The notes under the pieces: generated by a model
Told to the model about the DNA's origin: nothing
The model's input: only the letters and a program-made list of their open reading frames with translations
Database searches by the model: none
Assembly (NCBI GenBank): GCA_003487005.1
Contig: DNFG01000478.1
Span: 1-13,943, forward strand
Direction of reading: 5' to 3'
Source of the DNA: Bryobacterales bacterium
GTDB lineage: Bacteria > Acidobacteriota > Terriglobia > Bryobacterales > Bryobacteraceae
Length of the DNA stretch: 13,943 nt
Position numbers and translations under genes: made by a program
In this document: in pieces, positions 1 to 13,433 of the stretch
Layout: the number at the start of each line of letters is the position of its first letter
Numbering within the stretch: the first letter of the stretch is position 1

Positions 1-1630
1 GTTTGAGTGGCGGCGTGGCGGGGGCGGCATCGACCCAGACGGCGCCGGCGGCGAGTTTGTCGTAGAGCGCGTCCGCGCTCTCGATTCCGGAGACGGGCGT
101 CTCGGAGGCGTCTTCGATGGCGAAGACGCTGCCACGCTTCGCGGCGTGGATGGCGGCGGCACGGGCCTTGATGGCTGTTTCCGTCGAGGCTTCCGCGAGA
201 CTGGTCCAGCCGGCTTCGCCGGCGACCAACGCGAGAAACGCGGCCGGAGCGATGGCGGTTTCGGGCGCATCGAGCACCGTGGGGGCGAGAGCGTAGCTGT
301 GTCGCGCGGCGCCCGGGGCGGTGGGCGCCTCTTCGAGCGCTTCGAGGAAAGCCGGCGTAGCCACCTGGGCTTGCGCGAAGGCGGCATATCCGGTCTGGTA
401 GGGCGACATCACAACGACGAGGGCTTCGGGAGCGAGGCGGGAGGCGATGGCCTTCCACGGTTGAGCCGCACCGGCCGTGGCCGCTTCGATGAGCAGGACG
501 CCGATCGATCCGGCGGCGGCCTGATTGAGAGTGGTGACGGGTGCGAGATCCGGCGTATCGGCGGCCAGTGGGCCGCGCGCCACGATACCGCCTTCGCGGC
601 CCACGGCGCCGAGCAGCACATTGAGCGCGGCGATGGCGGTTTCGACTTCCTCGCCCAGCGGGCCGGCCAGTTCGCCGCCGCCGATGGCGACTGCCGGGCC
701 GCCGGCATGCAATTCGCGCGCGACGGAGGCGATCTCCCCGGGCTTCAAGCCCGTGATTTCCGCGACGCGGTTCATGGGCATTTCGTCGAGCAAGGTCTTG
801 AAGTGGTCGAGACCGGCGGCCTGCGCCGCGAGTCCTTCGTCCACGAGGACGCGGGCCAGGCCCAGCGCGAGAGCGCCTTCCGAACCGGGCAGCACGGGCA
901 GCCAGCGGTGGGCGAGACGGGCCGTGTGCGAGTACCGTGAACCGGCGTGAATGAAGGTGGCCTCGCCGCTCTTCCAGCGGGTGAGCATCTCGCCGGGGAC
1001 GCCCCAACCATCGAGCACCGGCGCGCCGAAGCTGAGCACGGTCCGGGCATTGGTGATGTCGAAACCAAGAGCGGGGGCGGTGGCCGGCAGCAGGCGGCGG
1101 ATAGCCGCGAGCGTCGCTTCCTCGGCGGCTTCGGGGGCCAGATAGAGGCCGCCCGCGAGCGTGGCGGCCTGCCGGTACAACGAACTCACCGCGCGGCCCG
1201 GACGCTCGTCCAGAATGGCGAACTTCGCACCCGTGCTGATCGCCGCGGCCACTTTGGCCGCGATCACCGACGGTTCGGCCTCTGCGCCGTTCAACCGGCA
1301 CGTCCGGATCCGCCGCGGATGCCACGCCAACTGGTGTGCGCCAAAAGCGAGCGGGCAGAGGGCGCCGTGGCTGACCGGGTGGTCCGCCGCCGGAGCGATG
1401 CCGATCGGGCGCGTGTCCACGCGGCGCACTTTGAGGCCGCAACCGGCCGCGCAGAGTGTGCACGTGGTGGCGACCTGGGTGATTTCACCGGGCTTGGGGA
1501 CCGGCAGCCATGGGAAGTTCTGCGTCCAGATCGAAACGTCGTCAAGCAGCTTGTAGGGAATGGGCGTGAAGGGCAGCGCCACAACGCTGCCGCCGCCGAA
1601 CAGAAGAAGATCTCTGCGAGTGATGGCCAT
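1..1630 (-). CDS. QrcB/ActB-like molybdopterin oxidoreductase-family subunit, Tat-exported (3' end outside window)
   Basis: Open without a stop from ATG 1630 to the window edge (543 codons visible). The N-terminus has a twin-arginine export motif (TRRDLLLFGGG, residues 4-14). The stretch LDDVSIWTQNFPWLPVP (29-45) is, from memory of the family, typical of the QrcB subunit of menaquinone reductase. It is followed by C57-x2-C60-x3-C64 and C92, a cubane [4Fe-4S] site of the molybdopterin oxidoreductase superfamily. Qrc and alternative complex III use such subunits as periplasmic Fe-S scaffolds, in Qrc without molybdenum; I cannot tell from the sequence whether this one binds Mo. GGAAGGGAG lies 8 bases before the start. 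It follows the cytochrome gene by 16 bases, the qrcA-qrcB order, so qrcC/qrcD-like genes (ferredoxin and NrfD-type membrane subunit) would be expected just beyond position 1. A true Mo enzyme is the main alternative. Confidence 0.82.
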   Translation of the reverse strand, partial: MAITRRDLLLFGGGSVVALPFTPIPYKLLDDVSIWTQNFPWLPVPKPGEITQVATTCTLCAAGCGLKVRRVDTRPIGIAPAADHPVSHGALCPLAFGAHQLAWHPRRIRTCRLNGAEAEPSVIAAKVAAAISTGAKFAILDERPGRAVSSLYRQAATLAGGLYLAPEAAEEATLAAIRRLLPATAPALGFDITNARTVLSFGAPVLDGWGVPGEMLTRWKSGEATFIHAGSRYSHTARLAHRWLPVLPGSEGALALGLARVLVDEGLAAQAAGLDHFKTLLDEMPMNRVAEITGLKPGEIASVARELHAGGPAVAIGGGELAGPLGEEVETAIAALNVLLGAVGREGGIVARGPLAADTPDLAPVTTLNQAAAGSIGVLLIEAATAGAAQPWKAIASRLAPEALVVVMSPYQTGYAAFAQAQVATPAFLEALEEAPTAPGAARHSYALAPTVLDAPETAIAPAAFLALVAGEAGWTSLAEASTETAIKARAAAIHAAKRGSVFAIEDASETPVSGIESADALYDKLAAGAVWVDAAPATPPLK

Positions 1631-1646
1631 GTCGTGTGCTCCCTTC

Positions 1647-2231
1647 CTAACGGTGACAGCCAAGGCAGCCGGCCACGGCGCCCCGCTCCTGGTGACAGCC
1701 CATGCAGTCGTCCATCTTCATGCCCTCGTGGGGCTGGCGCCGCATTCGGGAAATGCTGGTGCCCCAGATGTCGCGGCTGTATCCGCTGACCACGTTGTAT
1801 TCGTACGGTCTCAGGCTCTTCGTCTTGCCATGATCCCCGTGACAGCGCTCGCATTCGATCTTGGCCCGCTCGGTATGGACCGAGTGGGAGAAGCGCGTGT
1901 TGATGGGCTGGCGGGAGTAAACCAGCCAGGGAATCTCTTTGCCGGGGGTGATGTACTCGTCGACGATCTTGCGCTCGTTTTCGGTTTCGCCCACGGGTTC
2001 GGAATGGCAAAGGCCGCAGCTTTCCACCTTGGGGATGCCCGCGAAAGTGCCGTCCGCCCGGTATTCATGGCAGGACGAGCACTCCATCTCGGACTTCACG
2101 GTGTGGGCCGCGTGATCGAAATCAACCGGCTGTGTCTGCGCGCGGTACAGGGCCCTCGGGAAGGCCAGCCAACCGGCTGCCAGCATCACGGCCGCGCCTG
2201 CGGTGAAGAGTATAAAGCCGCGTTTCAGCAT
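1647..2231 (-). CDS. QrcA-like membrane-anchored multihaem cytochrome c
   Basis: 194 residues. An uncleaved-looking N-terminal helix (about 5-24) anchors it, with the rest periplasmic. Five CXXCH haem c sites are visible: 51-55, 72-76, 127-131, 176-180 and 189-193. FDHAAH (38-43) and FSHSVH (114-119) supply likely distal histidine ligands. The overall pattern (two N-terminal hemes, an EIPWLVY segment at 99-105, two hemes packed at the C-terminus) matches the c7/QrcA/ActA type that passes electrons between a periplasmic cytochrome network and the QrcB-like subunit encoded next. QrcA is usually described as hexahaem, so one site is missing or non-standard. The start at 2231 is preferred over an in-frame ATG at 2258 because AGGAG sits 4-8 bases upstream of it and the upstream start would overlap the previous gene. 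Eleven bases separate it from that gene. Confidence 0.88.
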   Translation of the reverse strand: MLKRGFILFTAGAAVMLAAGWLAFPRALYRAQTQPVDFDHAAHTVKSEMECSSCHEYRADGTFAGIPKVESCGLCHSEPVGETENERKIVDEYITPGKEIPWLVYSRQPINTRFSHSVHTERAKIECERCHGDHGKTKSLRPYEYNVVSGYSRDIWGTSISRMRRQPHEGMKMDDCMGCHQERGAVAGCLGCHR

Positions 2232-2242
2232 CGTCTCCTCGC

Positions 2243-3175
2243 TCAGGTTTGCGCCCACGCAGCGTGCGGGGCAAAGAATTCATTCAACAGACGGAGCAGT
2301 TCCTCGCGCTGCATCTGCCCGGCCAGGTCGGCCACGGCCACTCCGCCGTCATTCATCAGTGGTCCCAGGCTCGCCTCGCAGCGGGCCGTACAGCCGTGGA
2401 CGAACTCCGTCAGCCGCTGGGCTTCCTGGCCCATCCAGGCTACGGCCTGAGCACCATTCAGCAGGCCTTCGCGGACCTTCGCCGAGGGCGCTTCCCAGCC
2501 TTCAAACAGCCAGCCTTCGCCATACGGATCCTCAGCGAGCCGTTCGGGATGCCGCCGCAGATAGAGGTTCGCGCCGCTGATCAACATCGGATTCGGGAAG
2601 GTCACCGGCCAGGTCACCCCGTCCAGCGTCAGCGCCGCGCTGGGACGCCGCACGCCCTTCGCCGTCGCGAACGTGATCTCGCTGATGTTCTTCAGCGCCC
2701 GCGCCAGCAGTCCGTCAATGCCCACGTGACAGGCGCCGTTTTCACGCACGTCCAGCCACATGTGATTCGGCGCATAGTAGAGCCGCCGCGGTACCCGGAT
2801 CCCTTCCACCACAGGGTCGCGCTCGTCGCCCGAATGGACGCTGCTCAACCCCGGCTGCGCAAAGTTCAGATACAGGCTGCAATACTCGTACGCCCCGTCT
2901 CCGCACCGGCTCAACGAAGCTTCGCTGTAGGGCACGAACTTCGTCACCGGCGCCACCGAACAGAACTGCACCAGCCGCTCCTGCAGGTGGGGACACGCGC
3001 CGCATTCGCCAGCCTGCGCCGCTTCCGGGTGCTCCCGGTACACCACGCATTCCGTGTGCGCCGGGGTGGAACACCGTTCGAGGCCCATGGTTTCCAAACC
3101 ATTGCGGATCTGCATCCGCACCGGCGCTGCCGAACAACTTCGGACTCGCGTTTCCTTGAGAAATGGGCAGTTCAT
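2243..3175 (-). CDS. Cysteine-repeat protein with degenerate GcvH-like (lipoyl-type) domain
   Basis: 310 residues, no signal peptide or membrane helix, so probably cytoplasmic. The first 100 residues hold a tandem duplication of one motif: C-P-x-L-x7-C-S-x-A-P-V, then R-C-x7-C. Copy 1 has Cys 3, 14, 35, 43 and copy 2 has Cys 61, 72, 91, 99; each copy could bind an Fe-S cluster or metal. Residues about 133-235 follow the glycine cleavage H-protein fold pattern, including YYAPNHMWLDV, the VGID strand and the EDPYGEGW signature (215-222). No lysine exists between K173 and K233, so the lipoylated lysine of GcvH is absent (T188/W189 in its place). A C-terminal tail carries C262 and C266. GGGAGG precedes the ATG by a few bases. 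It lies between the small membrane protein and the cytochrome in one operon, which suggests a role as assembly factor or cytoplasmic redox partner. Function unknown. Confidence 0.8.
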   Translation of the reverse strand: MNCPFLKETRVRSCSAAPVRMQIRNGLETMGLERCSTPAHTECVVYREHPEAAQAGECGACPHLQERLVQFCSVAPVTKFVPYSEASLSRCGDGAYEYCSLYLNFAQPGLSSVHSGDERDPVVEGIRVPRRLYYAPNHMWLDVRENGACHVGIDGLLARALKNISEITFATAKGVRRPSAALTLDGVTWPVTFPNPMLISGANLYLRRHPERLAEDPYGEGWLFEGWEAPSAKVREGLLNGAQAVAWMGQEAQRLTEFVHGCTARCEASLGPLMNDGGVAVADLAGQMQREELLRLLNEFFAPHAAWAQT

Positions 3176-3204
3176 GTCCGCCTCCCGGCTCTCGATCCGT
3201 GCCC

Positions 3205-3444
3205 CTACCGGTCCTTCTTCTCTTCCGGTTCCACAGGCTCGCCGCCGTCGGCCATCGTCCAGCCCAGCTCCGGAATGTGCATCGCGTGCGTCTTCTCGCT
3301 CGCCGCCGCCCGCGCCTTCAGCCAGTACTCCACCGCGATGTTGTACGCCACCGCAGCCACGCAAATCAGCGTCACGATCCCCAACCCCAGGTTGGTCAGG
3401 TTGAGCCACAATGTCTCGCTATTGGACCAGTCGACTCCGAACAT
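3205..3444 (-). CDS. Small single-helix membrane protein, first gene of the respiratory operon
   Basis: 79 residues. It has a short N-terminal segment with several Trp/Asn (WSNSETLWLNLTN, 6-18), one hydrophobic helix (about 19-38) and a soluble, acidic-basic tail ending EPEEKKDR. The start at 3444 has a textbook AGGAGG six bases upstream; longer in-frame readings lack a ribosome site. It leads the minus-strand operon, 29 bases before the cysteine-repeat/GcvH-like gene. I do not recognise a named family. By position it may be a small accessory subunit, comparable to the tiny membrane subunits that accompany many respiratory complexes, but that is only inference. Confidence 0.72.
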   Translation of the reverse strand: MFGVDWSNSETLWLNLTNLGLGIVTLICVAAVAYNIAVEYWLKARAAASEKTHAMHIPELGWTMADGGEPVEPEEKKDR

Positions 3445-3514
3445 TTCAGGCCTCCTATTGCCGTTTCTTCCCGGCGGCGCGTCCGTTTGGACTCTCACCG
3501 CGCACCCTTTTCAC

Positions 3515-3531
3515 TGCACTTCCTGGACCAA
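3515..3531 (-). promoter_or_regulatory. Weak sigma-54-type -24/-12 candidate ahead of the respiratory operon
   Basis: Read on the minus strand this is TTGGTCCAGGAAGTGCA. The invariant GG and GC dinucleotides are 12 bases apart as sigma-54 requires, but flanking positions match the TTGGCAC...TTGCA consensus poorly. It would start transcription near 3504, giving a leader of about 60 bases before the ATG at 3444. I saw no better sigma-70 promoter for this operon. Confidence 0.25.
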
Positions 3532-3649
3532 ACCAGCTACCTTTCTGAAATCAGAGACTTACGTCCGAAAATAACTCTTGCGCCCCCTTCTGCGTGCCGG
3601 ATTCTCCAACATTCGCCGTCTCCGATTCCCACACAAGCGATGCCGTAGC

Positions 3650-3678
3650 TTGCCCCTCACCCCTGCCTGAGCGAGAAT
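3650..3678 (+). promoter_or_regulatory. Possible sigma-70 promoter of the hydrolase-GNAT pair (leaderless layout)
   Basis: TTGCCC (3650-3655), a 17-base spacer, then GAGAAT (3673-3678); each hexamer matches 4 of 6 consensus bases. Transcription would begin at or within a base or two of the ATG at 3686, and no Shine-Dalgarno precedes that ATG, so the mRNA may be leaderless. The rest of the 241-base divergent spacer (3445-3685) shows nothing else I can name. Confidence 0.35.
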
Positions 3679-3685
3679 CGCCTGT

Positions 3686-4582
3686 ATGGCCATTGAACGC
3701 ATCCGCGTGGCGTCCCTGCAGTACTTCATCCGCCCCGTGCAGACCTTCGAGCAGTTCCGCGACCAGGTGGATGCCCTTGTCGAGACCGCCGCCGACTATA
3801 AAGCCCAACTCGTCGTCTTCCCCGAATACTTCTCCGTTCAACTGCTGACTCTCGGCAATACCAAGCGCCCGATCCAGGACCAGATCCGCGACCTCGCCGC
3901 CCAGGTCCCTCGCTTCATCGAGATGATGAGCGCTCTGGCCCGCCGCGAGTCCATCTATATCGTGGCCGGCACCATCCCGACCATCGACGACCACGACTCC
4001 GGCATCGTCCACAATGACTGCTTCGTCTTCTCCCCCAAAGGCGAGTACGAGGTTCAGGGCAAACTGCACATGACGCGGTTTGAAAACGAGGAGTGGAAGG
4101 TCAGCCCGCGCTCCACCCTGAAAGTCTTCGATACCGACTTCGGCCCCTTCGCCGTCGCCATCTGTTACGACGTCGAGTTTCCCGAGATCGCCCGCGGCGC
4201 CGCCCGTCAGGGCGCGCACATCCTTGTTGTCCCCAGTTGCACGGATGACCGCCAGGGCTATTACCGCGTTCGCTACTGCGCCCAGGCGCGGGCCATCGAA
4301 AACCAGATGTATGTCATCCACTCCGGCACCGTCGGCTCTATTCCCACCGTCCCCGCCGTCTCGCTCAACTATGGCTGCGCCTCCATCCTCACGCCGAGCG
4401 ATTTCGCATTCTCCCGCGACGGCATCCTCGCCGAGGGCATCCCCAATCAGGAGATGATGGTGGTGGGCGAGTTGAACATGAAGACGATTCTGGATACCCG
4501 CACCAACGGCACCGTCCTGCCCCTGTTCGACTCCCACCGCTCCGCCGAAATCGCCACCCGCGTCGAAGTCTGCGAACTATGA
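3686..4582 (+). CDS. Carbon-nitrogen hydrolase (nitrilase superfamily)
   Basis: 298 residues, cytoplasmic. The nitrilase catalytic triad is plain: Glu47 in VVFPEYF, Lys126 in QGKLHMT and Cys160 in AICYDVEFPE, with a supporting Glu in FENEEW (132-137). These enzymes hydrolyse or condense amide or nitrile C-N bonds through a cysteine thioester. The substrate cannot be read from sequence, but the closest architecture I know is the C-terminal domain of Bacillus YhcX-type proteins, where a GNAT acetyltransferase is fused in front. Here the acetyltransferase is the next gene, overlapping by ATGA (4579-4582), so the two are translationally coupled and probably act together. The start fits the family's usual N-terminus (RIRVASLQY at 5-13). 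There is no ribosome site upstream. Confidence 0.9.
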   Translation: MAIERIRVASLQYFIRPVQTFEQFRDQVDALVETAADYKAQLVVFPEYFSVQLLTLGNTKRPIQDQIRDLAAQVPRFIEMMSALARRESIYIVAGTIPTIDDHDSGIVHNDCFVFSPKGEYEVQGKLHMTRFENEEWKVSPRSTLKVFDTDFGPFAVAICYDVEFPEIARGAARQGAHILVVPSCTDDRQGYYRVRYCAQARAIENQMYVIHSGTVGSIPTVPAVSLNYGCASILTPSDFAFSRDGILAEGIPNQEMMVVGELNMKTILDTRTNGTVLPLFDSHRSAEIATRVEVCEL

Positions 4583-5247
4583 ACATCGAGGTCCGCAACA
4601 CCCGGGCCGAGGATATCCCGGCCATCATTGAACTCTGCCGCCGTGTGTACCCCGAATCGCCGCCCTGGGGTGAAACCCAGTTGCGATCGCATCTCGACGT
4701 CTTCCCCGATGGGCAGTGGGTCGCCGTCGACCGCTCCGACGGCCTCGTCCGGGGCATGGCCGCGAGCCTGATCGTCTGGTGGAACGACTACGACGACGAT
4801 GACGACTGGCGCGACTTCACCGACCACGGCATGTTCACCAACCACGATGCCGAGAACGGCCGGACCCTTTACGGCGCTGAAGTGATGGTCGACCCCGCCG
4901 CCCAGGGCCATGGCATCGGCAAACAGATCTACCAGCAGCGCCGCGCGCTTGCTGAACGCCTCGGCCTGCTGCGCATCCGCGCCGGCGCCCGCCTCCGCGG
5001 CTACCACCACTACGCCGGCCAGATGTCCGCCGAAGAGTATGTCGCCCGTGTCGCCCGCGAGGAACTCGGCGATCCCACCCTCACCTTCCAACTCCACCAG
5101 GGCTTCCACGTCATGAAGGTGGTCCGCGACTACCTCCGCCATGACCCCGAAAGCCTCGGCTGGGCGGCCCTCATTGAATGGATCAACGAAGCCGTGGCCA
5201 CCCCGGCGGACTACCGGTACCGCAATCCGAAGTTCAGCCTCGATTGA
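4579..5247 (+). CDS. GNAT-family N-acetyltransferase
   Basis: 222 residues. The N-terminal pattern (IEVRNTRAEDIPAIIELCRRVYP, given here by position 3-25) is the usual GNAT beta1-alpha1. Motif A, which holds the acetyl-CoA pyrophosphate, is MVDPAAQGHGIGKQIYQ (103-119) with Q109-x-x-G112-x-G114. An acidic run, DDDDD (72-76), lies in the central loop. At 222 residues it is longer than a minimal GNAT, with a C-terminal extension that keeps the FHVMKVVRDYL element. It starts inside the stop of the hydrolase gene (ATGA), so expression is coupled. In YhcX-like proteins a comparable GNAT domain is fused to the hydrolase in the opposite order. The acceptor (amine, amino acid or peptide) is unknown. 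It converges on the ADOP permease gene with only 9 bases between the stops. Confidence 0.87.
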   Translation: MNIEVRNTRAEDIPAIIELCRRVYPESPPWGETQLRSHLDVFPDGQWVAVDRSDGLVRGMAASLIVWWNDYDDDDDWRDFTDHGMFTNHDAENGRTLYGAEVMVDPAAQGHGIGKQIYQQRRALAERLGLLRIRAGARLRGYHHYAGQMSAEEYVARVAREELGDPTLTFQLHQGFHVMKVVRDYLRHDPESLGWAALIEWINEAVATPADYRYRNPKFSLD

Positions 5248-5256
5248 TGGACCCGG

Positions 5257-7917
5257 TCATTCAGCGCGCAATGCGCGTGTGGGATCGATTCGCGATGCCT
5301 TCAGTGCGGGCACATAGCACGCCGCCAAGGTGATCCCAGTCAATAACAGAGGTACGACCACGAGCGTCATCGGGTTCAGCCGGCCCAATCCCGCAAACGC
5401 CGCCGACATGATGCTGAACACGGGCAGACTCAAGGCTACACCGGTCAGGGTTCCGCATCCAGCCAGGATCAGTCCCTGCCGGAGAATCAGCCGCAACACG
5501 CGGCCGCGCCCCGCGCCCACCGCCATCCGGATTCCGATTTCCCGCGTGCGGCGGCTCACGGTGTACGCCACCAACCCATACAAGCCCACCGTCGCCAGCA
5601 CAAGGCCGGCCAGTCCAATCGTTCCGACCATCTGCAGAACCACCATTGCCGGCGCCAGCACGCCCTGCTGATAGTACGTGCGCATGTCATAGACGTTGAA
5701 TACGGGCATGTTCTCATCGAGTGAATGGACCGAGTCAAACAGGTCTCCCACGATCAGCCGCGGTTCGCTCGCCGTTGCCACCAGCAGCGTCATCCGCGTT
5801 TGTGGCGCCTGTTCAAAGGGTAGATACAGGTAGGGTGTGGGCAGCTCCATCGTGCTCAAGTATTTTCCCGTCCGCGCGACCCCCACGACCTCGGCGAAGG
5901 GCCCCTGCGCGCCAAGCCGCAGCCGCCGGCCCAGGGCCTCCCGGCCCGGATAGTATCGCTTTGCGAACTCCTCGTTCACGATGACCACTGGAGCCGAACT
6001 CCCGCGATCGCTCCGGCTAAAGGCGCGTCCCCTCAACAAAGCCACGCCCGCCGTCTCGAAGTAATCCGGGTCCACGACGTTCGCTTCCAGCTTCACCGTC
6101 GTCTGGCCCGGCGCGAAGTCAAAACCTTCCGGAACGACTTCAACCGCGTTGAAATTCGGCCGGAATGGCACCGCCCGTGAGAGCGCGGCTGATTCTACAC
6201 CGGGCAACTGCCGGATGCGCTCCTTGAGTTGCCGCAGAAATTCGGCCGACTGCTCCGCGGAGTATCGGGCGAGCGTTGGATCGAATTCCATCATCATCAG
6301 ACGCTCGGTCCGGATGCCTGGATCGATCACCAACATCCTGCGGAATGCGTCCAGCATCGCCGCGGACGCCACCAGAAGCACCAGGCACAGCGCCACCTGC
6401 GCACCCACCAGCAAGTGCCGCCCCCAGGATCGCACCCGGTCCTTCATCTCCATGTCTCCGGCCTTCAAGGCAGGAGTCAGGTCCGGCTTCACTGCCTTCC
6501 ACGCCGGAATTGCTCCGAAAAACACCGCGCTCAACACGGATGTCACCACACTGAACAAGAGCACCCTGCCATCCAGTTGCGTCGCCAGCGACATCGGTGT
6601 ATCTGTCGGCAGCCGGATCGCAGCCAGGTGCCGGATCACCACGGACGCCAACCCGACCCCAAGCGCTCCGCCACACAGCGCCAGCAGCAGGCTTTCGGTG
6701 AGCAGCTGTTGAAATAGCCGTCCGCGTCCGGCGCCGATCGCCGACCGGATCGCCATTTCCCGCATCCGGCTCCGCGCCCGCGCGAGCAGCAGGCTCGCCA
6801 CATTCGCGCAGGCGATCACCAGGACCAGAAATGAGAGCGTCATCAGCATCGCCACCATTCCCGCCACCTCCGGCGAGTCCTTGAGCCTGTTCCGGAGATC
6901 GCTGAGCGCGATGAACGCCCGGTCCCGGTTCGTTTCCGGATAAGCCAATTCAAGAGCCGCGCCCAACGTCTCCACTTCGGCGCTCGCCTCGGCCATCGAG
7001 ACTCCGGGCTTCAGCCGCCCGCGCACGTCGAATCCCGGTTCGCTCCGGTCCTGGATCACCGGAGTTCCGTGCCGCCGTGGCGCCAGCCGGTCGGCCATCG
7101 TCGCCGGGACGTACATCGCGTACCGCATCAGGTTGCTGATCCCGGTGAACCCTTCCGGCGCCACGCCCACGACCGTGAATGGGATGCCATTCACCCGGAG
7201 CGTCATCCCAATCGCGTCTTGATTCGCCCCAAGATCGTTCTTCCAGAATTCATGACTAACCACCGTCACGGGTTCCCGGCCCGGAACCGTCGTCTCCTCG
7301 CGCGAGAACCCGCGGCCCATGATGGGCTGCACTCCCATGGTCTCGAAGAATCCGTCGCTGACGATCTTGCAGAACAGCATCCGCGGGATGGCGTCTGTCT
7401 CTCGCGCGACGGCCAGCCTTCGGGTCGCGTGGGCGCTCATCGACGAGAATGATTCAGCCCGCGCCCGCAGATCGAGGAAGTCCGGATAGGAAACCTCCTC
7501 GTAACCGCTCCTCCGGTGGTTCACGCTGATCTTCGCCACCGCGTCCGGCTCGTGAATGGGCAGCGGCCGGAGCAACAACGCCTCGGAGACGCTGAATGAC
7601 GCCGTGTTTGCACCGATCCCCAATACCAGCGAAAGCACCGCCGTTCCCGTGAACCCCGGACTTTTCCTTAACGAGCGCCCCGCAAACCGCACGTCCAGCG
7701 CCAGCCGTTCCGCCGCTCCCCATCCCCACATGTCTCTGGTCACCTCCTTCACCAGATCCACGTTGCCGAACTCGCGCCGAGCCGCGTACCCAGCCTCTCG
7801 AGGATCCTCGCCGCGCGCGATGCGATCCTGCTTCGCCATCTCGAGGTGAGACCGGATTTCTTCGTCCAATTCCTCCTCACGCCGCCGCCACCGCCAGAGC
7901 CACCCTCTGAGTTTCAC
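5257..7917 (-). CDS. ADOP-family ABC transporter permease (MacB/FtsX type, duplicated)
   Basis: 886 residues from a GTG start. Residues 1-70 form the soluble helical leader common in acidobacterial orphan permeases (REEELDEEIRSHLEMA, 13-28). Then comes a duplicated MacB-FtsX plan: helix near 90-112, a periplasmic MacB_PCD domain (about 113-350), three helices (353-379, 408-430, 452-474), helix 501-521, a second MacB_PCD domain (about 522-755) and three helices (757-785, 812-840, 852-872). The post-helix signature occurs twice: REMAIRSAIGAGRGRL (386-401) and REIGIRMAVGAGRGRV (792-807). No ATPase gene is nearby, as is usual for the family. GTG at 7917 overlaps the padR stop (GTGA), so the pair is translationally coupled; the reading frame stays open upstream of it but only through padR. 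Related MacB systems export peptides or drugs or act mechanically on the envelope; the substrate here is unknown. Confidence 0.93.
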   Translation of the reverse strand: MKLRGWLWRWRRREEELDEEIRSHLEMAKQDRIARGEDPREAGYAARREFGNVDLVKEVTRDMWGWGAAERLALDVRFAGRSLRKSPGFTGTAVLSLVLGIGANTASFSVSEALLLRPLPIHEPDAVAKISVNHRRSGYEEVSYPDFLDLRARAESFSSMSAHATRRLAVARETDAIPRMLFCKIVSDGFFETMGVQPIMGRGFSREETTVPGREPVTVVSHEFWKNDLGANQDAIGMTLRVNGIPFTVVGVAPEGFTGISNLMRYAMYVPATMADRLAPRRHGTPVIQDRSEPGFDVRGRLKPGVSMAEASAEVETLGAALELAYPETNRDRAFIALSDLRNRLKDSPEVAGMVAMLMTLSFLVLVIACANVASLLLARARSRMREMAIRSAIGAGRGRLFQQLLTESLLLALCGGALGVGLASVVIRHLAAIRLPTDTPMSLATQLDGRVLLFSVVTSVLSAVFFGAIPAWKAVKPDLTPALKAGDMEMKDRVRSWGRHLLVGAQVALCLVLLVASAAMLDAFRRMLVIDPGIRTERLMMMEFDPTLARYSAEQSAEFLRQLKERIRQLPGVESAALSRAVPFRPNFNAVEVVPEGFDFAPGQTTVKLEANVVDPDYFETAGVALLRGRAFSRSDRGSSAPVVIVNEEFAKRYYPGREALGRRLRLGAQGPFAEVVGVARTGKYLSTMELPTPYLYLPFEQAPQTRMTLLVATASEPRLIVGDLFDSVHSLDENMPVFNVYDMRTYYQQGVLAPAMVVLQMVGTIGLAGLVLATVGLYGLVAYTVSRRTREIGIRMAVGAGRGRVLRLILRQGLILAGCGTLTGVALSLPVFSIMSAAFAGLGRLNPMTLVVVPLLLTGITLAACYVPALKASRIDPTRALRAE

Positions 7918-8279
7918 GCCATGGCCTCGCTTTCCGAGCTCATGAATCCGCTGATCGCGGCGCTCAGCACATTCCAGCGGTTCCGTTCCGAGGCCAATTG
8001 CCGTCGTCCGGCCGGAGTCAGCCGGTAATACTTGGCTCGCTGATTGTTCTCGGTCAATTTCCATTCCGACGAGACCCACCCATTACGCTCCAGCCGGTGC
8101 AGCGCAGGGTAGAGAGATCCCGTCTCCACGCGCAACACTTCGCCCGAACCCGACCAGATTGTCTGGCAGATTCCATAGCCGTGTCGCGGTTCTTCTCCCA
8201 AGGCTCGCAGGATCAGCATGTCCAGCGTCCCTTGCAGAAGTTCAATCCGGTTCCGGTAGCGGGTGTCCGTTGAAGGCAT
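7914..8279 (-). CDS. PadR-family transcriptional regulator
   Basis: 121 residues. A PadR winged helix: LLQGTLDMLILRALGEEPRH (14-33), GYGICQTI (34-41), the recognition helix around GSLYPALHRLERNGWV (54-69), then the wing RAKYYRLTPAGRRQL (81-95). The short C-terminal helix makes it a small, PadR-s1-like member that would dimerise. Family members usually repress their own operon and the linked transporter gene until a ligand binds. The stop overlaps the permease GTG (GTGA), and two inverted repeats lie across its own start region, which supports autoregulation of the regulator-permease unit. No Shine-Dalgarno precedes the ATG. What it senses cannot be read from the sequence. Confidence 0.93.
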   Translation of the reverse strand: MPSTDTRYRNRIELLQGTLDMLILRALGEEPRHGYGICQTIWSGSGEVLRVETGSLYPALHRLERNGWVSSEWKLTENNQRAKYYRLTPAGRRQLASERNRWNVLSAAISGFMSSESEAMA

Positions 8280-8317
8280 GTAGACATTCTACAGCCATGG
8301 ACGTAGATTCACTACAT
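8278..8317 (-). promoter_or_regulatory. Tandem PadR-type operators over a probable leaderless promoter
   Basis: Two copies of one inverted repeat: TGTAG-ACATT-CTACA (8279-8293) and GTAG-ATTCA-CTAC (8303-8315; with one mismatch the arms extend to 8301-8317). Their centres are 23 bases apart, about two helical turns. On the minus strand TAGAAT (8291-8286) is a 5/6 match to a -10 box, with TAGTGA (8314-8309) as a weak -35 at 17 bases. The -10 box ends six bases before the padR ATG, so the mRNA would be leaderless and one operator would cover the -10 and start codon while the other covers the -35. Confidence 0.55.
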
Positions 8318-8351
8318 CCTTTTTTCGCGCCCGCCTGCAATTTACAGTTGT

Positions 8352-9758
8352 CTACTCCACCCCCAACCCCAGCATCCTCTTCGCGTTCCCGTAGCAGATG
8401 CCTTGCACCAGCGGGGCCAGCAGTTCGTCGGAATCCGGCAGCAGTCCCTTTTCGACGTCATCGCCCAGCAGGTTGCACAGTGTCCGCCGGAAGTATTCAT
8501 GCCGCGGGTAGGACATGAACGACCGCGAATCCGTCAACATGCCCACGAATTTGGACAAAAGCCCGCAGTTCGACAACGCATTCATCTGCCATTCCATCGC
8601 TTCCTTCTGATCCAGGAACCACCAGCCGCTGCCAAATTGAATCTTTCCAGCCGTCCGCCCGTCCTGGAAATTGCCAACCATCGTCGCCACCGCGTAATTG
8701 TCCGCCGGATTCAGGTTGTAAATGACCATTTTCGGCAGCGCGTTCTCGCTTTCCAACGCGTCCAGGTAGTTGCCCAGCGCGTCGATCTGCGGCCAGTCGC
8801 CGATCGAATCATAGCCCGTGTCCGGACCCAGTTGCGCCGCCATCCGCGAATTGTTGTTCCGCCGTGCGCCCAGGTGCAACTGCTTCGTCCAGCCCTTTTC
8901 CGCGTCCAGACGCCCGAAATAGAGCATCAGGAACGAAGCGAACTTGCGGTGCTCTTCGGGCGTGGCCGCCTGGCAGGACCGCGCCTCGTCGAAGATCGCC
9001 GCCGCGTCGGCTTCCGTGCAATCCTCTGCGTAGCAACTCGTCAGTCCGTGGTCGCTCAACCGTCCGCCCAGACTGTGAAAATAATCATGCCGCTGCTTCA
9101 GCGCGTCCAGAAAACTCTGGAACGACTCAATATCGACATTCGCCGCTGCCGACAGCCGCCCCACCCAGTCATTGAAAAGATCCGGCTGCGAAACCAGCAG
9201 CGCCTTGTCGGGCCGGAAGGTGGGAAACACCTTTGTCCCCAAATCCGACGCCGCAATCTGCCTGTGCCATTCCAGATCATCCGTCGGATCATCCGTGGTG
9301 CACACCGCTTTGACATTGAATTTTCCGAGAATGCCCCGTGCCCGCAAGTCCTCCCCGGCCAGTTTCTCTTTCGCCCGCTCCCAGATCGAGGGAGCCGTGT
9401 TCTCGTCCAGTAATTCCTCGATCCCGAAATACCGCTTCAATTCCAGGTGCGTCCAGTGATACAGCGGATTCCGCAGCGTCGCCGGCACCGTCCGCGCCCA
9501 CGCCAGGAACTTCTCCCGGGGCTCGGCGTCCCCCGTCACCAGGCGCTCGTCCACCCCGTTCGCCCGCATCGCCCGCCACTTGTAGTGGTCCCCTTCCAGC
9601 CAGATCTCGAACAGGTTGGCGAACTGCCGGTTCTCCGCCACATCTTTCGGCGGCAGGTGGCAGTGATAGTCCAGAATCGGCTCCCCGGCCGCGTGATTGT
9701 GATACAACCGCCGCGCCGTCGCGCTCTGCAACAGAAAATCTTCATGTATGAAAGCCAT
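8352..9758 (-). CDS. uxaC: Uronate isomerase (glucuronate/galacturonate isomerase)
   Basis: 468 residues against 470 in E. coli UxaC. It interconverts D-glucuronate and D-fructuronate, or D-galacturonate and D-tagaturonate, the first cytoplasmic step of hexuronate use. The family N-terminus AFIHEDFLLQSATARRLYH (2-20) is followed by the amidohydrolase-type metal motif DYHCH (His32, His34); further signatures are RLSDHGL and, at the C-terminus, TDSRSFMSYPRHEYF (409-423) with the conserved Asp410 and Arg412. The ATG at 9758 is chosen over one at 9764 because GGAGG lies seven bases before it and only two before the other. No other uronate-pathway gene (uxaA, uxaB, kdgK) is in view, so it stands alone between the regulator-permease unit and a divergent exported-enzyme cluster. 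Confidence 0.96.
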   Translation of the reverse strand: MAFIHEDFLLQSATARRLYHNHAAGEPILDYHCHLPPKDVAENRQFANLFEIWLEGDHYKWRAMRANGVDERLVTGDAEPREKFLAWARTVPATLRNPLYHWTHLELKRYFGIEELLDENTAPSIWERAKEKLAGEDLRARGILGKFNVKAVCTTDDPTDDLEWHRQIAASDLGTKVFPTFRPDKALLVSQPDLFNDWVGRLSAAANVDIESFQSFLDALKQRHDYFHSLGGRLSDHGLTSCYAEDCTEADAAAIFDEARSCQAATPEEHRKFASFLMLYFGRLDAEKGWTKQLHLGARRNNNSRMAAQLGPDTGYDSIGDWPQIDALGNYLDALESENALPKMVIYNLNPADNYAVATMVGNFQDGRTAGKIQFGSGWWFLDQKEAMEWQMNALSNCGLLSKFVGMLTDSRSFMSYPRHEYFRRTLCNLLGDDVEKGLLPDSDELLAPLVQGICYGNAKRMLGLGVE

Positions 9759-9823
9759 CGCCATTCCTCCATCCCGCTCGTGTTCGCGCCGTCCCCATTG
9801 CAACACCAGGACTTCGCGATCTC

Positions 9824-9853
9824 ATTCTCTGCCAACCCGTCCGCAAACGGCAA
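9824..9853 (-). promoter_or_regulatory. Possible sigma-70 promoter of uxaC
   Basis: On the minus strand TTGCCG (9853-9848), an 18-base spacer, then GAGAAT (9829-9824). Each hexamer matches 4 of 6 consensus bases. It would give a leader of roughly 60 bases ending in the GGAGG ribosome site. Confidence 0.35.
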
Positions 9854-9857
9854 GCGC

Positions 9858-9863
9858 TATATT
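9858..9863 (+). promoter_or_regulatory. -10-like element ahead of the exported isochorismatase gene
   Basis: TATATT, 5 of 6 to the -10 consensus, ends 12 bases before the ATG at 9876. No convincing -35 is present, and only GAAGAA (9866-9871) resembles a ribosome site. The uxaC -35 candidate on the other strand is 5 bases away, so the two promoters would be back to back. Confidence 0.3.
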
Positions 9864-9875
9864 CTGAAGAACGCC

Positions 9876-10667
9876 ATGCTGCTGCCGCGCCGTTCGCTGC
9901 TGTTCGCGCCCCTCGCCCTTGCCGCTCAGCCACCCGCTGACCTGCGCTTCCAGGCCCGCACCCGCATTCTCCGGCCTCCCGCCGAACAACCCACCCCCGT
10001 CGATTTCCCCGCCTCCTGCCCCCCGGCGCGCGCCGCCGCCATCCTCTGCGATGTCTGGGACCGCCACTGGTGCCGCGGCGCCAATGAACGCGTCGCCGCC
10101 ATGCTTCCCCGTCTCATCGAAACCGCCGGAGCGCTGCGCCGCCGCGGCGTGCAGATCATCCACGCCCCTTCCGACACCATGGACTTTTACCGCGACGCCC
10201 CCCAACGCCGCGCCATCCAGGCCCTGCCCGCCGCCACTCCGCCTCCCCTCAAGCCCTGGCCCGATCCCCCCCTGCCCATCGACGATTCCGACGAAGGCTG
10301 CGACACCCCCGGCGACCTCCCCAAGAAAACCTACACCCGCCAACACCCCGCCATCCCCATCGAACCCGCCGATTTCATCTCCGACAACGGCAACGAAATC
10401 TACAACGCCCTCCATGCCCGCCGTGCCACCCACCTGTTCATCATGGGGGTCCACACCAACATGTGCATCCTCAACCGCTCCTTCGCCATCAAGCGCATGA
10501 CCCGCTGGGGCTTCCGCTGCTTCCTCGTCCGCGACCTCACCGACGCCATGTACAACCCCGCCCGCGCCCCCTTTGTCTCCCACGACCGCGGCACTGAACT
10601 CGTGGTTGAATATATCGAGCAGCACTGGTGCCCCAGCACCACCTCTGAAGCCCTGATCAACGCCTGA
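9876..10667 (+). CDS. Exported isochorismatase-family cysteine hydrolase
   Basis: 263 residues. The start at 9876 gives an export signal with a twin arginine and a hydrophobic run, PRRSLLFAPLALAAQ (4-18); the frame is open further upstream, but only as antisense to uxaC. The mature part has the isochorismatase/nicotinamidase plan: Asp59 in AAILCDVWDRHW, a lysine at 150/151 (PKKTYTRQH) and Cys197 in GVHTNMCILN, forming the expected Asp-Lys-Cys triad. The family hydrolyses amides or vinyl ethers (nicotinamide, isochorismate, ureido compounds) and is usually cytoplasmic, so the signal is unusual. Three bases separate it from the DUF1080 gene, implying one transcript. Substrate unknown; a link with sugar processing is suggested by neighbours only. 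Confidence 0.83.
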   Translation: MLLPRRSLLFAPLALAAQPPADLRFQARTRILRPPAEQPTPVDFPASCPPARAAAILCDVWDRHWCRGANERVAAMLPRLIETAGALRRRGVQIIHAPSDTMDFYRDAPQRRAIQALPAATPPPLKPWPDPPLPIDDSDEGCDTPGDLPKKTYTRQHPAIPIEPADFISDNGNEIYNALHARRATHLFIMGVHTNMCILNRSFAIKRMTRWGFRCFLVRDLTDAMYNPARAPFVSHDRGTELVVEYIEQHWCPSTTSEALINA

Positions 10668-10670
10668 ACC

Positions 10671-11291
10671 ATGTCACTTTTCGCCCTCCTCCTCCTCGCC
10701 GCCGCCGCCGCGCCAGCCACTGCCGCCGACTGGCAGTCCCTTTTCGACGGCCGCTCCCCCGCGGCTTTCCTCTCGATCACCGGCGGACCCGTCGATCCCG
10801 GCAGTTGGGCCGTTCAGGATGGCTGCCTCTGCGCGCTCTCCACCACCGCCGGCCGCCAGGATCTCCGCACCCGCGCCGAATTCGAGGCCTTTGAACTCGA
10901 ATTCGACTGGCGCTCGCCCGTCAAAGGCAATTCCGGCGTCAAATACCTGATCGAGCGCATCGACGACTGGCCCCACCCTCAGGGCCAGGGCCGCCACGCC
11001 CGCGCCCGGGGCAGGGAATACCAACTCGGCGACGACTCCATCTTCCCCCAGAAACAGCGTCAGGCCGCCGCCCTGTATGGCGAAATCGCGCCCTCTCAAT
11101 CCGCCGCCCGCCCGCTCGGCGAATGGAACCAGTCCCGCATCGTCGTCAAGCCCACCGGCGAAGTTGAACACTGGCTCAACGGCCAGCGCGTCGTCTCCTA
11201 CCAGTCCAAAATTCACCGCAGCCCCATCTCGCTGCAGAACCACAACACCGCAGTCTGCTTCCGCAACCTCAGGATTCGCGCCCTCCAGTAA
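10671..11291 (+). CDS. DUF1080 family protein (3-keto-glycoside hydrolase/lyase type), secreted
   Basis: 206 residues with a clear Sec signal (FALLLLAAAAAPATAADW, 4-21; cleavage probably after TAA). The mature domain carries the hallmarks of PF06439: WQSLFDG (21-27), DLRTRAEFEAFELEFDW (64-80), GNSGVKYL (86-93), EYQLGDD (115-121), ALYGEIAP, GEWNQSRIVV and HWLNGQRVVSY near the C-terminus. The fold is a concanavalin-like beta jelly roll. Characterised members cleave 3-keto-disaccharides or 3-keto-glucosides after an oxidoreductase has made the 3-keto form. The next gene, 84 bases on, is an oxidoreductase of exactly that class with its own export signal, so the two could act one after the other in the periplasm. 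No Shine-Dalgarno is visible in the 3-base gap to the previous gene. Confidence 0.9.
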   Translation: MSLFALLLLAAAAAPATAADWQSLFDGRSPAAFLSITGGPVDPGSWAVQDGCLCALSTTAGRQDLRTRAEFEAFELEFDWRSPVKGNSGVKYLIERIDDWPHPQGQGRHARARGREYQLGDDSIFPQKQRQAAALYGEIAPSQSAARPLGEWNQSRIVVKPTGEVEHWLNGQRVVSYQSKIHRSPISLQNHNTAVCFRNLRIRALQ

Positions 11292-11333
11292 CTTGCGCCC
11301 CACCCCGGTCGTCCCATTTGTGATAGACCTGTC

Positions 11334-11353
11334 TTTAATCACCCGAAAGTGAT
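11334..11353 (+). promoter_or_regulatory. Weak -10-like box and small hairpin before the oxidoreductase gene
   Basis: TTTAAT (11334-11339) resembles a -10 box but has no good -35. It overlaps a short inverted repeat, ATCAC (11338-11342) with GTGAT (11349-11353). AGGAG (11359-11363) lies 12 bases before the ATG. The gene may have a second promoter of its own, but the signal is weak. Confidence 0.22.
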
Positions 11354-11375
11354 CCTCCAGGAGCAAACCACCACC

Positions 11376-12656
11376 ATGAGCAGCCGCAGATCCTTCATAT
11401 TCGGCGCCGGGGGAGCCATGGCCTCCCACCTCGCCGCCCGTCAGGCCATGTCCGCCAACAACAAACTCCGCATCGCCGTCATCGGAGCCAACGGCCGCGG
11501 CCGTGACCACATCCGGGGCATCATGCAGCAGCCAGACGCCGAAGTCGTCTGCCTCTGCGACCCCGATCAGTCGATCCTCGACCGCCGCGTCGTCGAATTC
11601 GAGAAACAGTACGGCAAAAAGCCCCACCTCGAAAACGACCTGCGCAAGGTCTTCGATAACAAGGACATCGACGCCGTCACCATCGCCACCCCCAACCACT
11701 GGCACTCCCTCGCCGCCATCTGGGCCTGCCAGGCCGGCAAGGACGTCTATGTCGAAAAACCCGGCTCCCACAACATCTTTGAAGGCCGCAAGATGGTCGA
11801 AGCCGCGCACAAATACAAGCGCATCGTCCAGCACGGCGTCCAACTCCGCAGTTCCGAAGCCATCCGGGAAGCCGTTTCGCTGCTCCGCAAGGGCGTCATC
11901 GGCGACGTCTACATGGCCCGCGGCCTCGTCTTCCGGTGGCGGCCCTCGATCGGCAACAAGGGCCCCGAACCCGTCCCCGCCGGTCTCAACTACGACCTCT
12001 GGACCGGCCCCGCCCAGATGGAACCCTTCTCCCGCCGCCATGTCCACTACAACTGGCACTGGACCTGGAACTACGGCAATGGCGACGTCGGCAACCAGGG
12101 CATCCACGAAACCGACCTCTGCATGTGGGGCCTCGGCGTCAACACCCTCCCCTCCAAGATCACCTCCATGGGCGGCAAGTTCACCTTTGACGACGACAAG
12201 CAGACCCCCGAGGTCCAGACCAGCCTCTACCACTACCCCGAACAGAAGAAAATGATCCAGTTCGAGGTCCGCCACTGGTGCACCAATAACGAAGACGGCG
12301 TCGGCGTCGGCAACATCTTCTATGGCACCGAAGGCTACATGATCGTCAACGGCTACGAGACCTTCCAGGTCTTCCTCGGCCAGAAGAAAGAAAAGGGCCC
12401 CGGGCGCAAAGCCGGCGGCGACCACTACGCCAACTGGATCAAGGCCGTCCGCTCCCGCAATGTCGAGGACCAGAACGGACCCGTCGAGACCGCCCACCTC
12501 AGTTCCGCCCTCGCCCACCTCGGCAACATCGCCTTCCGCACCGGACGCGTGCTCTCCTTCGACCCGCTCAAGGAACGCTTCATCGGCGATAAAGAAGCCG
12601 ATTCCATGCTCACCCGCAACTATCGCAAGCCTTACGTGGTCCCCGAAAAGGTCTGA
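11376..12656 (+). CDS. Tat-exported Gfo/Idh/MocA-family oxidoreductase
   Basis: 426 residues. The Tat signal SSRRSFIFGAGGAMASHLAA (2-21) is followed by the Rossmann motif AVIGANGRGRDH (34-45), the acidic residue CDPD (61-64) that discriminates the dinucleotide, ATPNHWH (104-110) and the family lysine motif YVEKPGSHN (125-133, Lys128 expected to be catalytic). C-terminal landmarks include WNYGNGDVGNQGIHETDL with a His suited to catalysis. Family members oxidise or reduce sugars with tightly bound NAD(P); Tat export lets the cofactor cross pre-loaded. With the DUF1080 gene before it, 3-OH oxidation of a glycoside is a reasonable guess. The ATG at 11376 puts the signal peptide at the N-terminus; a GTG at 11349 would bury it. 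A hairpin terminator follows 24 bases after the stop. Confidence 0.93.
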   Translation: MSSRRSFIFGAGGAMASHLAARQAMSANNKLRIAVIGANGRGRDHIRGIMQQPDAEVVCLCDPDQSILDRRVVEFEKQYGKKPHLENDLRKVFDNKDIDAVTIATPNHWHSLAAIWACQAGKDVYVEKPGSHNIFEGRKMVEAAHKYKRIVQHGVQLRSSEAIREAVSLLRKGVIGDVYMARGLVFRWRPSIGNKGPEPVPAGLNYDLWTGPAQMEPFSRRHVHYNWHWTWNYGNGDVGNQGIHETDLCMWGLGVNTLPSKITSMGGKFTFDDDKQTPEVQTSLYHYPEQKKMIQFEVRHWCTNNEDGVGVGNIFYGTEGYMIVNGYETFQVFLGQKKEKGPGRKAGGDHYANWIKAVRSRNVEDQNGPVETAHLSSALAHLGNIAFRTGRVLSFDPLKERFIGDKEADSMLTRNYRKPYVVPEKV

Positions 12657-12679
12657 CCCTCCTCGCAGGCCTTTCCGTC

Positions 12680-12713
12680 AAAGGGCGGCATCCCTCACCG
12701 GGACCGCCCTTTT
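12680..12713. terminator. Hairpin terminator between convergent genes
   Basis: AAAGGGCGG (12680-12688) pairs perfectly with CCGCCCTTT (12704-12712), and an inner TCCC (12691-12694) pairs with GGGA (12700-12703). TTTT ends the right side, so it best serves the plus-strand oxidoreductase gene. The A-run on the left lets it also work, more weakly, for the minus-strand gene ending at 12715. Confidence 0.8.
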
Positions 12714-12714
12714 C

Positions 12715-12975
12715 CTATTCCTGTCCCGGATCGAAATCGTCCGCCAGCGGTTCCGGATTCGCCAGTAGATGAACCGCCGCCTCGGCATCCATCCGCTTCA
12801 CCTGAACCCGGAACTCCCCCCGCGTCTGCCCCGTGTACGCGCCATGGTGAATCCCCAGAGGCGACCCGCTCACCACCACCTCCAACCCGTTCGCCTCCAG
12901 ATACCCCGCCGCCATGTAGGCCTCGTGCACCTGCGCATACTGCCCCACTGTCACCACATCATCATCTTCCGGCAT
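12715..12975 (-). CDS. DUF2007-like small protein
   Basis: 86 residues, cytoplasmic. DVVTVGQYAQVHEAYMAAGY (6-25) followed by LEANGLEVVVSG, then a loop and FRVQVKRMDAEAAVHLL, gives the beta-alpha-beta/beta-alpha pattern of DUF2007, a small 'putative signal transducing' domain in which a strand with residues like TVYT leads into an alpha helix over multiple positions. The ATG at 12975 is used; a longer TTG reading from 13011 would start inside the upstream terminator. GAGGGG directly abuts the ATG, too close for a normal ribosome site. It lies downstream of the YXWGXW gene on the same strand but behind that gene's terminator, so it is probably transcribed alone. Role unknown. Confidence 0.72.
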   Translation of the reverse strand: MPEDDDVVTVGQYAQVHEAYMAAGYLEANGLEVVVSGSPLGIHHGAYTGQTRGEFRVQVKRMDAEAAVHLLANPEPLADDFDPGQE

Positions 12976-12981
12976 CCCCTC

Positions 12982-13011
12982 ATTACACCCCGTCCGCCCG
13001 TCCAGGCGCAA
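12982..13011 (-). promoter_or_regulatory. Possible promoter of the DUF2007-like gene (leaderless layout)
   Basis: On the minus strand TTGCGC (13011-13006), an 18-base spacer, then TGTAAT (12987-12982). The -10 matches 5 of 6 bases and the -35 matches 4 of 6. Transcription would start at about the ATG. It begins right after, and touches, the T-run of the upstream terminator. Confidence 0.33.
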
Positions 13012-13055
13012 AAAGAGGGCCGCGCGAGCCCATTTTCGTGGTTCGCGCGGCCCTC
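13010..13055 (-). terminator. Rho-independent terminator of the YXWGXW-repeat gene
   Basis: A perfect 13-base inverted repeat, GAGGGCCGCGCGA (13015-13027) with TCGCGCGGCCCTC (13043-13055), and a 15-base loop. On the minus strand it is followed by TTTTT (13014-13010). It begins 16 bases after the stop of the secreted protein gene and separates that gene from the DUF2007-like gene. Confidence 0.9.
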
Positions 13056-13071
13056 CCGGTCCTTCCTTTGA

Positions 13072-13374
13072 CTACCGCCAGCGGCCCTCGAAGTACATAT
13101 ACCCGCCCCGCCGCGGCGCCGGCGCCCAGTAACCCGGATCATAACGCATGTACCCCCGCGGCGGCTTCATCCACCGGCCCCGGACCCACCTGTAGCGGTT
13201 CCCCGTCCACCGGTAATGTCCCGGCACCCACACATGCCGCGGGCTCGGCGCCCTCATCATCCTCTCGTAAGGCGGAGGAGGAGGGCCATACATCGCCCGG
13301 CCACCCCCGCGCGCTTCCGCCACCCCCGTCGCCAGGGTCAGGGCGAAAATCCCGAGTGCGAGAAATCTCTTCAT
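13072..13374 (-). CDS. Secreted YXWGXW-repeat protein
   Basis: 100 residues. A Sec signal peptide MKRFLALGIFALTLATGVAEA (residues 1-21, cleavage after AEA) leads to a Gly/Pro/Arg-rich linker and a Trp/Tyr/Arg-rich body. The body carries repeats of the YXWGXW type: HVWVPGHYRWTGNRYRW, then VRGRW, GYWAPAP and FEGRW. Such short, basic, aromatic-rich envelope proteins are common in Proteobacteria and Acidobacteria and have no firm function; cell-envelope binding is often supposed. The ATG at 13374 has AGGAG seven bases upstream and puts the signal at the N-terminus. A strong sigma-54 promoter match lies ahead of it and a strong terminator behind, making it a tightly bounded single-gene unit. Confidence 0.85.
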   Translation of the reverse strand: MKRFLALGIFALTLATGVAEARGGGRAMYGPPPPPYERMMRAPSPRHVWVPGHYRWTGNRYRWVRGRWMKPPRGYMRYDPGYWAPAPRRGGYMYFEGRWR

Positions 13375-13416
13375 GGCTGCTCTCCTTCTCGTCCAGGTTG
13401 GACCTGACCACTTCAC

Positions 13417-13433
13417 TGCAAGCGCTGTGCCAA
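13417..13433 (-). promoter_or_regulatory. Sigma-54 (-24/-12) promoter of the YXWGXW-repeat gene
   Basis: The minus strand reads TTGGCACAGCGCTTGCA, matching the sigma-54 consensus TGGCACG-N4-TTGCA at all positions but one (A for G after TGGCAC). GG and GC are exactly 12 bases apart. The predicted start near 13406 leaves a 32-base leader that includes AGGAG. A small palindrome, ATTGA-A-TCAAT (13446-13456), lies about 45 bases upstream of that start. The rest of the 204-base divergent spacer (13375-13578) shows no other clear signal. Confidence 0.62.

Follow-up and report, generated by a model that had tools for sequence, protein, structure and literature searches.

Cys-GcvH is a protein of 310 amino acids (plus stop) encoded at 2243..3175 on the minus strand of a 13,943-nucleotide stretch from the draft genome of a soil bacterium of the Bryobacterales (contig DNFG01000478.1, positions 1 to 13,943; hereafter the window), in an operon with genes of the Qrc type. 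Our analysis suggests that it may be an adaptor with a non-lipoylated GcvH fold and two four-cysteine units that lies in the cytoplasm, is held at the membrane and regulates Qrc in response to redox state or metals, a reading to which we assign a probability of roughly 45%. According to this model, a small ADGG-tailed membrane protein encoded just upstream would anchor Cys-GcvH to the membrane, and the cysteine units would bind zinc or iron-sulfur (Fe-S) clusters. Together with a second GcvH-like protein (GcvH2), Cys-GcvH would form a layer of control at the inner side of the Qrc-type cytochrome c:menaquinone oxidoreductase, its GcvH-like domain docking on a kinase, a regulator or an NrfD-type subunit and passing on a signal, not electrons. 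A sigma-54 regulator would act on the sigma-54-like sites found upstream.

Two cysteine units and a GcvH-like domain without lipoyl lysine

Cys-GcvH contains cysteines at residues 3, 14, 35, 43, 58, 61, 72, 91, 99, 149, 262 and 266. By homologue alignment and profile comparison, they include unit 1 (C3, C14, C35 and C43; residues 3-43, 3047..3169, on the minus strand like the other features of the protein) and unit 2 (C61, C72, C91 and C99; residues 61-99, 2879..2995). Profile comparison with 24 rows showed that the two units are homologous (97.8% probability, E 7.9e-13). In an alignment of 204 listed homologues, taken from searches with 277 and 718 hits, seven of the motif cysteines were cysteine in every row and C3 in 202, with gaps in the other two. 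This bears out the duplicated four-cysteine motif that an earlier note on this DNA had described. Residues 1-110 gave no match in Pfam or NCBIfam, the N-terminal profile had no match among PDB sequences up to E 10, and two single-unit proteins from the wider family gave one chance-level match in NCBIfam (12.4 of 777 bits). The conserved units could be metal or Fe-S sites.

The GcvH-like domain (residues 132-245; 2441..2782) matched GCV_H (PF01597) at 28.7 bits (cut-off 22.2) and scored far under the cut-off of the NCBIfam GcvH models (NF002270, 35.8 of 117; TIGR00527, 23.8 of 115.85). GcvH models were the only Pfam and NCBIfam matches of the protein, and we regard the domain as real but divergent. 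The lysines of Cys-GcvH are at residues 7, 79, 162, 173 and 233 only, and there is none within residues 174-232, an absence that is independent of the alignment model. Alignment to 1onl placed T188 (2612-2614) opposite the lipoyl lysine, and this column held D in 177, T in 12, E in 12, G in 2 and M in 1 of the 204 rows, never K; pairwise alignment with the genome's own GcvH gapped the lipoyl hairpin, so that the exact lysine column is model-dependent. That separate GcvH, encoded elsewhere in the source genome, carries ESVKA. The earlier proposal that a GcvH domain has been reused without its lipoyl lysine thus stands. A DGG motif lies in the C-terminal tail (residues 276-278; 2342..2350), with D in 203, G in 204 and G in 204 of the 204 rows. 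The protein has no hydrophobic span by a 19-residue Kyte-Doolittle scan, whose highest mean was 0.82 (no signal-peptide program was run); this agrees with the cytoplasmic appearance noted before.

The qrc operon in the window and in related loci

On the minus strand of the window, the operon is preceded by a sigma-54 (-24/-12) promoter-like site, TGGTCCAGGAAGTGCA, at 3515..3530, which matches the consensus at 8/11 positions and ends 70 nt short of the start codon (ATG) of the small membrane protein gene. The product, a one-span protein of 79 aa (3205..3444), has the C-terminal end TMADGGEPVEPEEKKDR. Cys-GcvH follows, and then a QrcA-like multiheme cytochrome c with five CxxCH motifs (1647..2231; the open reading frame starts at 2258, with the likely ATG at 2231), which scored 200.7 bits on NF041781 (cut-off 180) and confirms the Qrc-like operon reported next door. 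A QrcB-like molybdopterin-type subunit (PF04879 and PF00384; 1..1663) is broken off by the contig end. In the source genome the operon appears to be split between two contigs: that of the window breaks off within QrcB, and contig C450 holds the last part of this gene together with QrcC, QrcD, GcvH2, a regulator, an M54 archaemetzincin and a kinase. The QrcD-model score in this genome, 569.6 of 570 bits, came from a separate contig. At the DNA level, window positions 9-3533 share 78% identity with the operon of a related locus, L005. At another, L011, the Qrc models scored 583.3 of 570 bits for QrcD and, under the cut-off, 255.4 of 440 bits for QrcB. On C450 an unrelated open frame precedes the end of QrcB (L086, 1-1084) and similarity to L005 starts at 1084, which probably marks a rearrangement or a join made in assembly. 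Upstream of the operon, the window carries divergent genes for a carbon-nitrogen hydrolase of the nitrilase family and a GNAT acetyltransferase (3686-5247).

A survey of the best 80 of 97 confirmed Cys-GcvH loci, from Acidobacteriota, Bacteroidota including Ignavibacteria, Kryptoniota, KSB1 and Eisenbacteria, revealed a common gene order: small membrane protein (79 loci), Cys-GcvH (80), QrcA (73), QrcB (69), QrcC (65), QrcD (62) and GcvH2 (56). Within the fetched stretches we also found a sigma-54 regulator in 38 loci, a histidine kinase in 37 and an M54 archaemetzincin in 33; many stretches stop early, and missing genes were not checked one by one. The sole locus without the upstream membrane protein lies on a contig that begins inside Cys-GcvH, and DGG ends the membrane protein in 79/79 loci. 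GcvH2, often last in the operon, has an N-terminal hydrophobic stretch (by eye), and an alignment of the 54 rows scoring over 180 retained its four cysteines in 54/54 and a DGG tail with D in 53, G in 54 and G in 53. QrcB starts with a twin-arginine-type signal (by eye). CxxCH motifs were present in 27/30 strong matches among the kinases adjoining Cys-GcvH, which is consistent with a periplasmic heme-c sensor.

Among 297 genomes of the window's phylum, Acidobacteriota, full-length Cys-GcvH was present in 6 among the matches listed and QrcA over cut-off in 5; all 5 fall within the 6, with the genes adjacent. The genomes are related, and no p-value is relied on for this co-occurrence. The QrcA model matched in 217/297 genomes altogether, and the 212 matches weaker than the cut-off were taken as other cytochromes. 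QrcA was missing from 7 of the 80 loci: L053, L075 and L079 end directly after Cys-GcvH, and the others are L050, L062, L083 and L082. On the question whether the fusion always accompanies QrcA/QrcB-like genes, QrcA comes next in 73/80 loci, and four of the 80, plus genome G262, lack qrcABCD beside Cys-GcvH. Close homologues showed no lysine aligned to the lipoyl site, no loss of cysteine conservation and no preponderance of non-respiratory loci, the three outcomes that the earlier note had named as refuting.

Cys-GcvH without recognisable Qrc

In five orphan loci (L050, L062, L083, L082 and, in G262, L088), the membrane protein and Cys-GcvH lie beside a regulator and a kinase without qrcABCD. 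A QrcD-model search of the five genomes found nothing above 164 bits (best matches 128-164), compared with 561-585 in three controls; in the genomes of L050, L062, L083 and L082 the search covered QrcD alone. In the orphan proteins, none of the eight cysteines has been lost and 46-51 of the 51 near-invariant positions are intact; their terminal branches measure 0.09-0.89 changes per site. L082 (G300) carries remains of QrcD (two fragments) and of GcvH2 at 11098-12479, adjoining an intact membrane protein and Cys-GcvH, and is 87% identical to L078; it represents a recent loss of Qrc. The other four orphans are at most 66% identical to any row known with Qrc.

Sigma-54-like sites

We scanned the loci with the -24/-12 consensus of sigma-54 promoters. 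Sites matching at least 9/11 positions occurred upstream of the small membrane protein in 38/77 loci, compared with 3.1 expected from random windows, and sites matching at least 8/11 in 61/77, compared with 13.9 expected. A one-base shift in spacing brought the counts near background (2 versus 2.5 and 4 versus 2.2 expected). The orphans L050, L062, L083 and L088 also have such a site. In 10 of 19 other loci (L085, L088, L089, L090, L092, L093, L097, L123, L124 and L127), a site of at least 9/11 stood immediately upstream of whichever cysteine-unit or GcvH-like gene came first, or of the gene for the Cys-GcvH membrane protein, as judged by reading and with no chance expectation. The sites at L123 and L124 are perfect (11/11), that of L123 standing before a gene with cysteine motifs and a GcvH-like domain, and the scan gave no sigma-54-like site at all at L096, L120 and L122.

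The DG[GA] tail and archaemetzincin

M54 archaemetzincin was found in 21/21 tested genomes of Cys-GcvH loci. It was also present in 43/44 genomes with a tail-reaching match among the matches listed, compared with 38/253 others, the 44 being selected by reach into the tail, which excludes receiver fusions. The single exception among the 44, G172, is a true GcvH. A DG[GA] tail was carried by 65/66 proteins in M54-positive genomes and 0/10 in M54-negative genomes, in a count that excludes G172 and G246 as true GcvH and in which one of three G078 rows duplicates another's tail. The 66th protein is orphan L088, which ends in EGG; its neighbouring M54 gene is a truncated remnant, and its membrane protein has lost DGG. 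On a gene tree of 73 rows built without the tail columns, the association amounts to only two joint changes; in this analysis L088 counts as carrying the motif because of a chance DGA that lies upstream of its EGG. A counterexample is G325, a draft of 92% completeness with a DGG-tailed protein in which no M54 was found. We treat the co-occurrence of the DG[GA] tail and archaemetzincin as a lead.

The motif HExGHxxGxxHC is present in 32/33 M54 proteins of the surveyed loci, and the M54 protein of L011 scored 154.4 bits on NF033823 (cut-off 145). To our knowledge, no substrate of a bacterial archaemetzincin has been identified, and our literature search found no paper with both archaemetzincin and a histidine kinase. 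One could imagine a circuit in which a heme-c or hydrogenase-like sensor kinase and a sigma-54 regulator switch on the tethered GcvH-fold proteins with their four-cysteine units, and the co-encoded M54 recognises or cleaves the DG[GA] tail, which would bring proteolysis into the control of respiratory complexes. This circuit draws on the co-occurrences above, and we hold it to be unlikely.

Paralogues, receiver fusions and single cysteine units

The family extends beyond Cys-GcvH, and its members are often associated with two-component systems, sigma-54-like sites and archaemetzincin. Twenty loci of paralogues, GcvH-like proteins with a C-terminal extension, were fetched (L085, L089-L101, L120-L123, L126 and L127), chosen from the best matches and not at random; 15 have QrcC- or QrcD-like genes and 15 a matching kinase. 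In L100 (9429-10775), L120 (6916-8037), L121 (7188-8315) and L122 (7431-9077), a membrane span, a receiver and a GcvH-like domain are fused in one protein beside a kinase and an NrfD-like gene. The Pfam scores of the L120 fusion were 98.9 bits for Response_reg and 65 for GCV_H, and a simple motif test together with the sequences suggests that further receiver-GcvH fusions exist.

Cysteine units also occur on their own. Twelve single-unit sequences from other genomes were homologous to unit 1 (99.0%, E 4e-18), and single units also form small proteins encoded ahead of such operons or next to a sigma-54 regulator and NuoE/NuoF/hydrogenase-like genes. Tiny single-unit proteins lie between these genes (named by eye) at L124 (9872-10063) and L125 (9417-9623). 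In L111, L114 and L118, a cysteine unit is fused to extra cysteine motifs and a GcvH-like domain. L123 (3629-9027) encodes a hydrogenase-like sensor kinase, M54, a sigma-54 regulator and then a protein that combines three cysteine motifs with a GcvH-like domain; together they look like a signalling unit complete in itself. No NrfD gene was recognised in the 16-20 kb fetched at L123 (20 kb), L124 and L125.

Alternative roles of Cys-GcvH

The earlier note had proposed that Cys-GcvH assembles Qrc or feeds it electrons. As stated, this role fits poorly with the orphans that lack qrcABCD beside them, the kin without NrfD nearby and the receiver fusions. Its electron-transfer version, in which Fe-S clusters in the cysteine units carry electrons from a cytoplasmic donor to the complex, draws on the eight conserved cysteines within a respiratory operon. 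However, the peripheral Qrc subunits are on the periplasmic side, according to PMC8076601, and the cysteine units also form small proteins beside sigma-54 regulators. Moreover, a gene for a cytoplasmic redox partner was not among the ten families surveyed, no further search for one being made, and we give this version very little credence. A cytoplasmic chaperone for the maturation or quality control of exported QrcB, or of the complex's hemes and Fe-S clusters, would explain why a soluble protein has exported operon partners, one of them with a twin-arginine-type signal (by eye), and its cysteine units could hold a metal. Such a chaperone is nonetheless improbable, as it leaves the orphans, the receiver fusions and the loci without exported partners unexplained, and in Pfam and NCBIfam the protein matched GcvH models alone.

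A closer competitor, which we hold to be possible if doubtful, is an accessory subunit on the cytoplasmic face of Qrc that stabilises the complex or shapes proton entry to QrcD, with the nearby regulators merely controlling the operon. The synteny with QrcA is near-obligate (73/80 loci; 5/5 genomes with QrcA over cut-off), QrcC- or QrcD-like genes accompany 15/20 of the paralogues, and Qrc draws protons from the cytoplasm, as described in PMC13059093, which makes an inner-face partner plausible. That source also describes the Desulfovibrio complex as produced and studied as QrcABCD, and Cys-GcvH has stayed constrained in five genomes where no QrcD is recognisable. A pure Qrc subunit is made less likely by the presence of Cys-GcvH where no Qrc is recognisable, by relatives with no NrfD gene in the vicinity (L123, L124 and L125) and by the receiver-domain fusions.

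Several observations weigh against the regulatory adaptor. The adjacency of QrcA to Cys-GcvH, and the presence of Cys-GcvH in every genome with QrcA over cut-off, fit a structural subunit. At near-invariant positions the orphans differ by 0-5 changes (on average 2.6, compared with 1.2 in the other rows), their genomes are drafts probed with the QrcD model alone, and other NrfD-type proteins (128-164 bits) remain in them, which Cys-GcvH might serve. The window's own sigma-54-like site, at only 8/11, is weak alone, and none reaching 9/11 was found at orphan L082. Kinase, regulator and M54 occur together in only 10/20 paralogue loci, and L095, L098 and L099 show no match to a kinase, QrcC/QrcD-like protein or M54. 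Taken together, we infer that the best compromise is a regulatory adaptor, responsive to redox state or metal, at the cytoplasmic face of Qrc and of related complexes.

Comparison with known systems

In our open-literature search, made mostly from listings, no description of the Cys-GcvH protein or module was found. The main text of PMC10564751 does not mention GcvH or glycine cleavage, and PMC6338057 mentions neither Qrc nor NrfD. PMC10564751 assigns QrcD to an acidobacterium and reports qrcABCD transcription for the metagenome-assembled genome CO124, which is our locus L030; PMC8076601 places QrcD in 35 deltaproteobacterial species only. A tight link to sulfate reduction was rejected: full dsrA was present in 4/22 Cys-GcvH genomes tested and not in the window's own draft.

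Compared with GcvH (PF01597/TIGR00527), Cys-GcvH shares a domain homologous over residues 132-245, with H138, W140, G152, N203 and the DPYGxGW block retained, but lacks the lipoyl lysine and adds N-terminal cysteine units and a DGG-bearing C-terminal tail. LbpA of Hdr-like sulfur oxidation is likewise a GcvH-like protein outside glycine cleavage; its lysine is strictly conserved in 95 aligned LbpA (PMC6067878), whereas Cys-GcvH lacks it (Hdr genes were not sought in Cys-GcvH loci). In this diversified family the GcvH fold appears to persist although the cofactor lysine is gone. Its genes often lie by NrfD-type respiratory genes and two-component systems, and annotation labels the products 'glycine cleavage system H protein'. 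Sensing or controlling respiration may be a new use to which this old metabolic fold has been put.

The operon has the same gene set as QrcABCD of sulfate reducers, a periplasm-facing complex that draws cytoplasmic protons (PMC13059093 and PMC8076601), and the QrcA and QrcD models score over or within a bit of the cut-off. It differs in the addition of two GcvH-like proteins and the small membrane protein, so that Qrc of Acidobacteriota and Ignavibacteria gains candidate partners not mentioned in the Qrc literature examined. Finally, the Cys-GcvH loci share M54 proteins with the HExGHxxGxxHC motif with the systems in which archaemetzincin accompanies sigma-54 two-component genes, which ties bacterial archaemetzincins to concrete, testable neighbours and a candidate motif.
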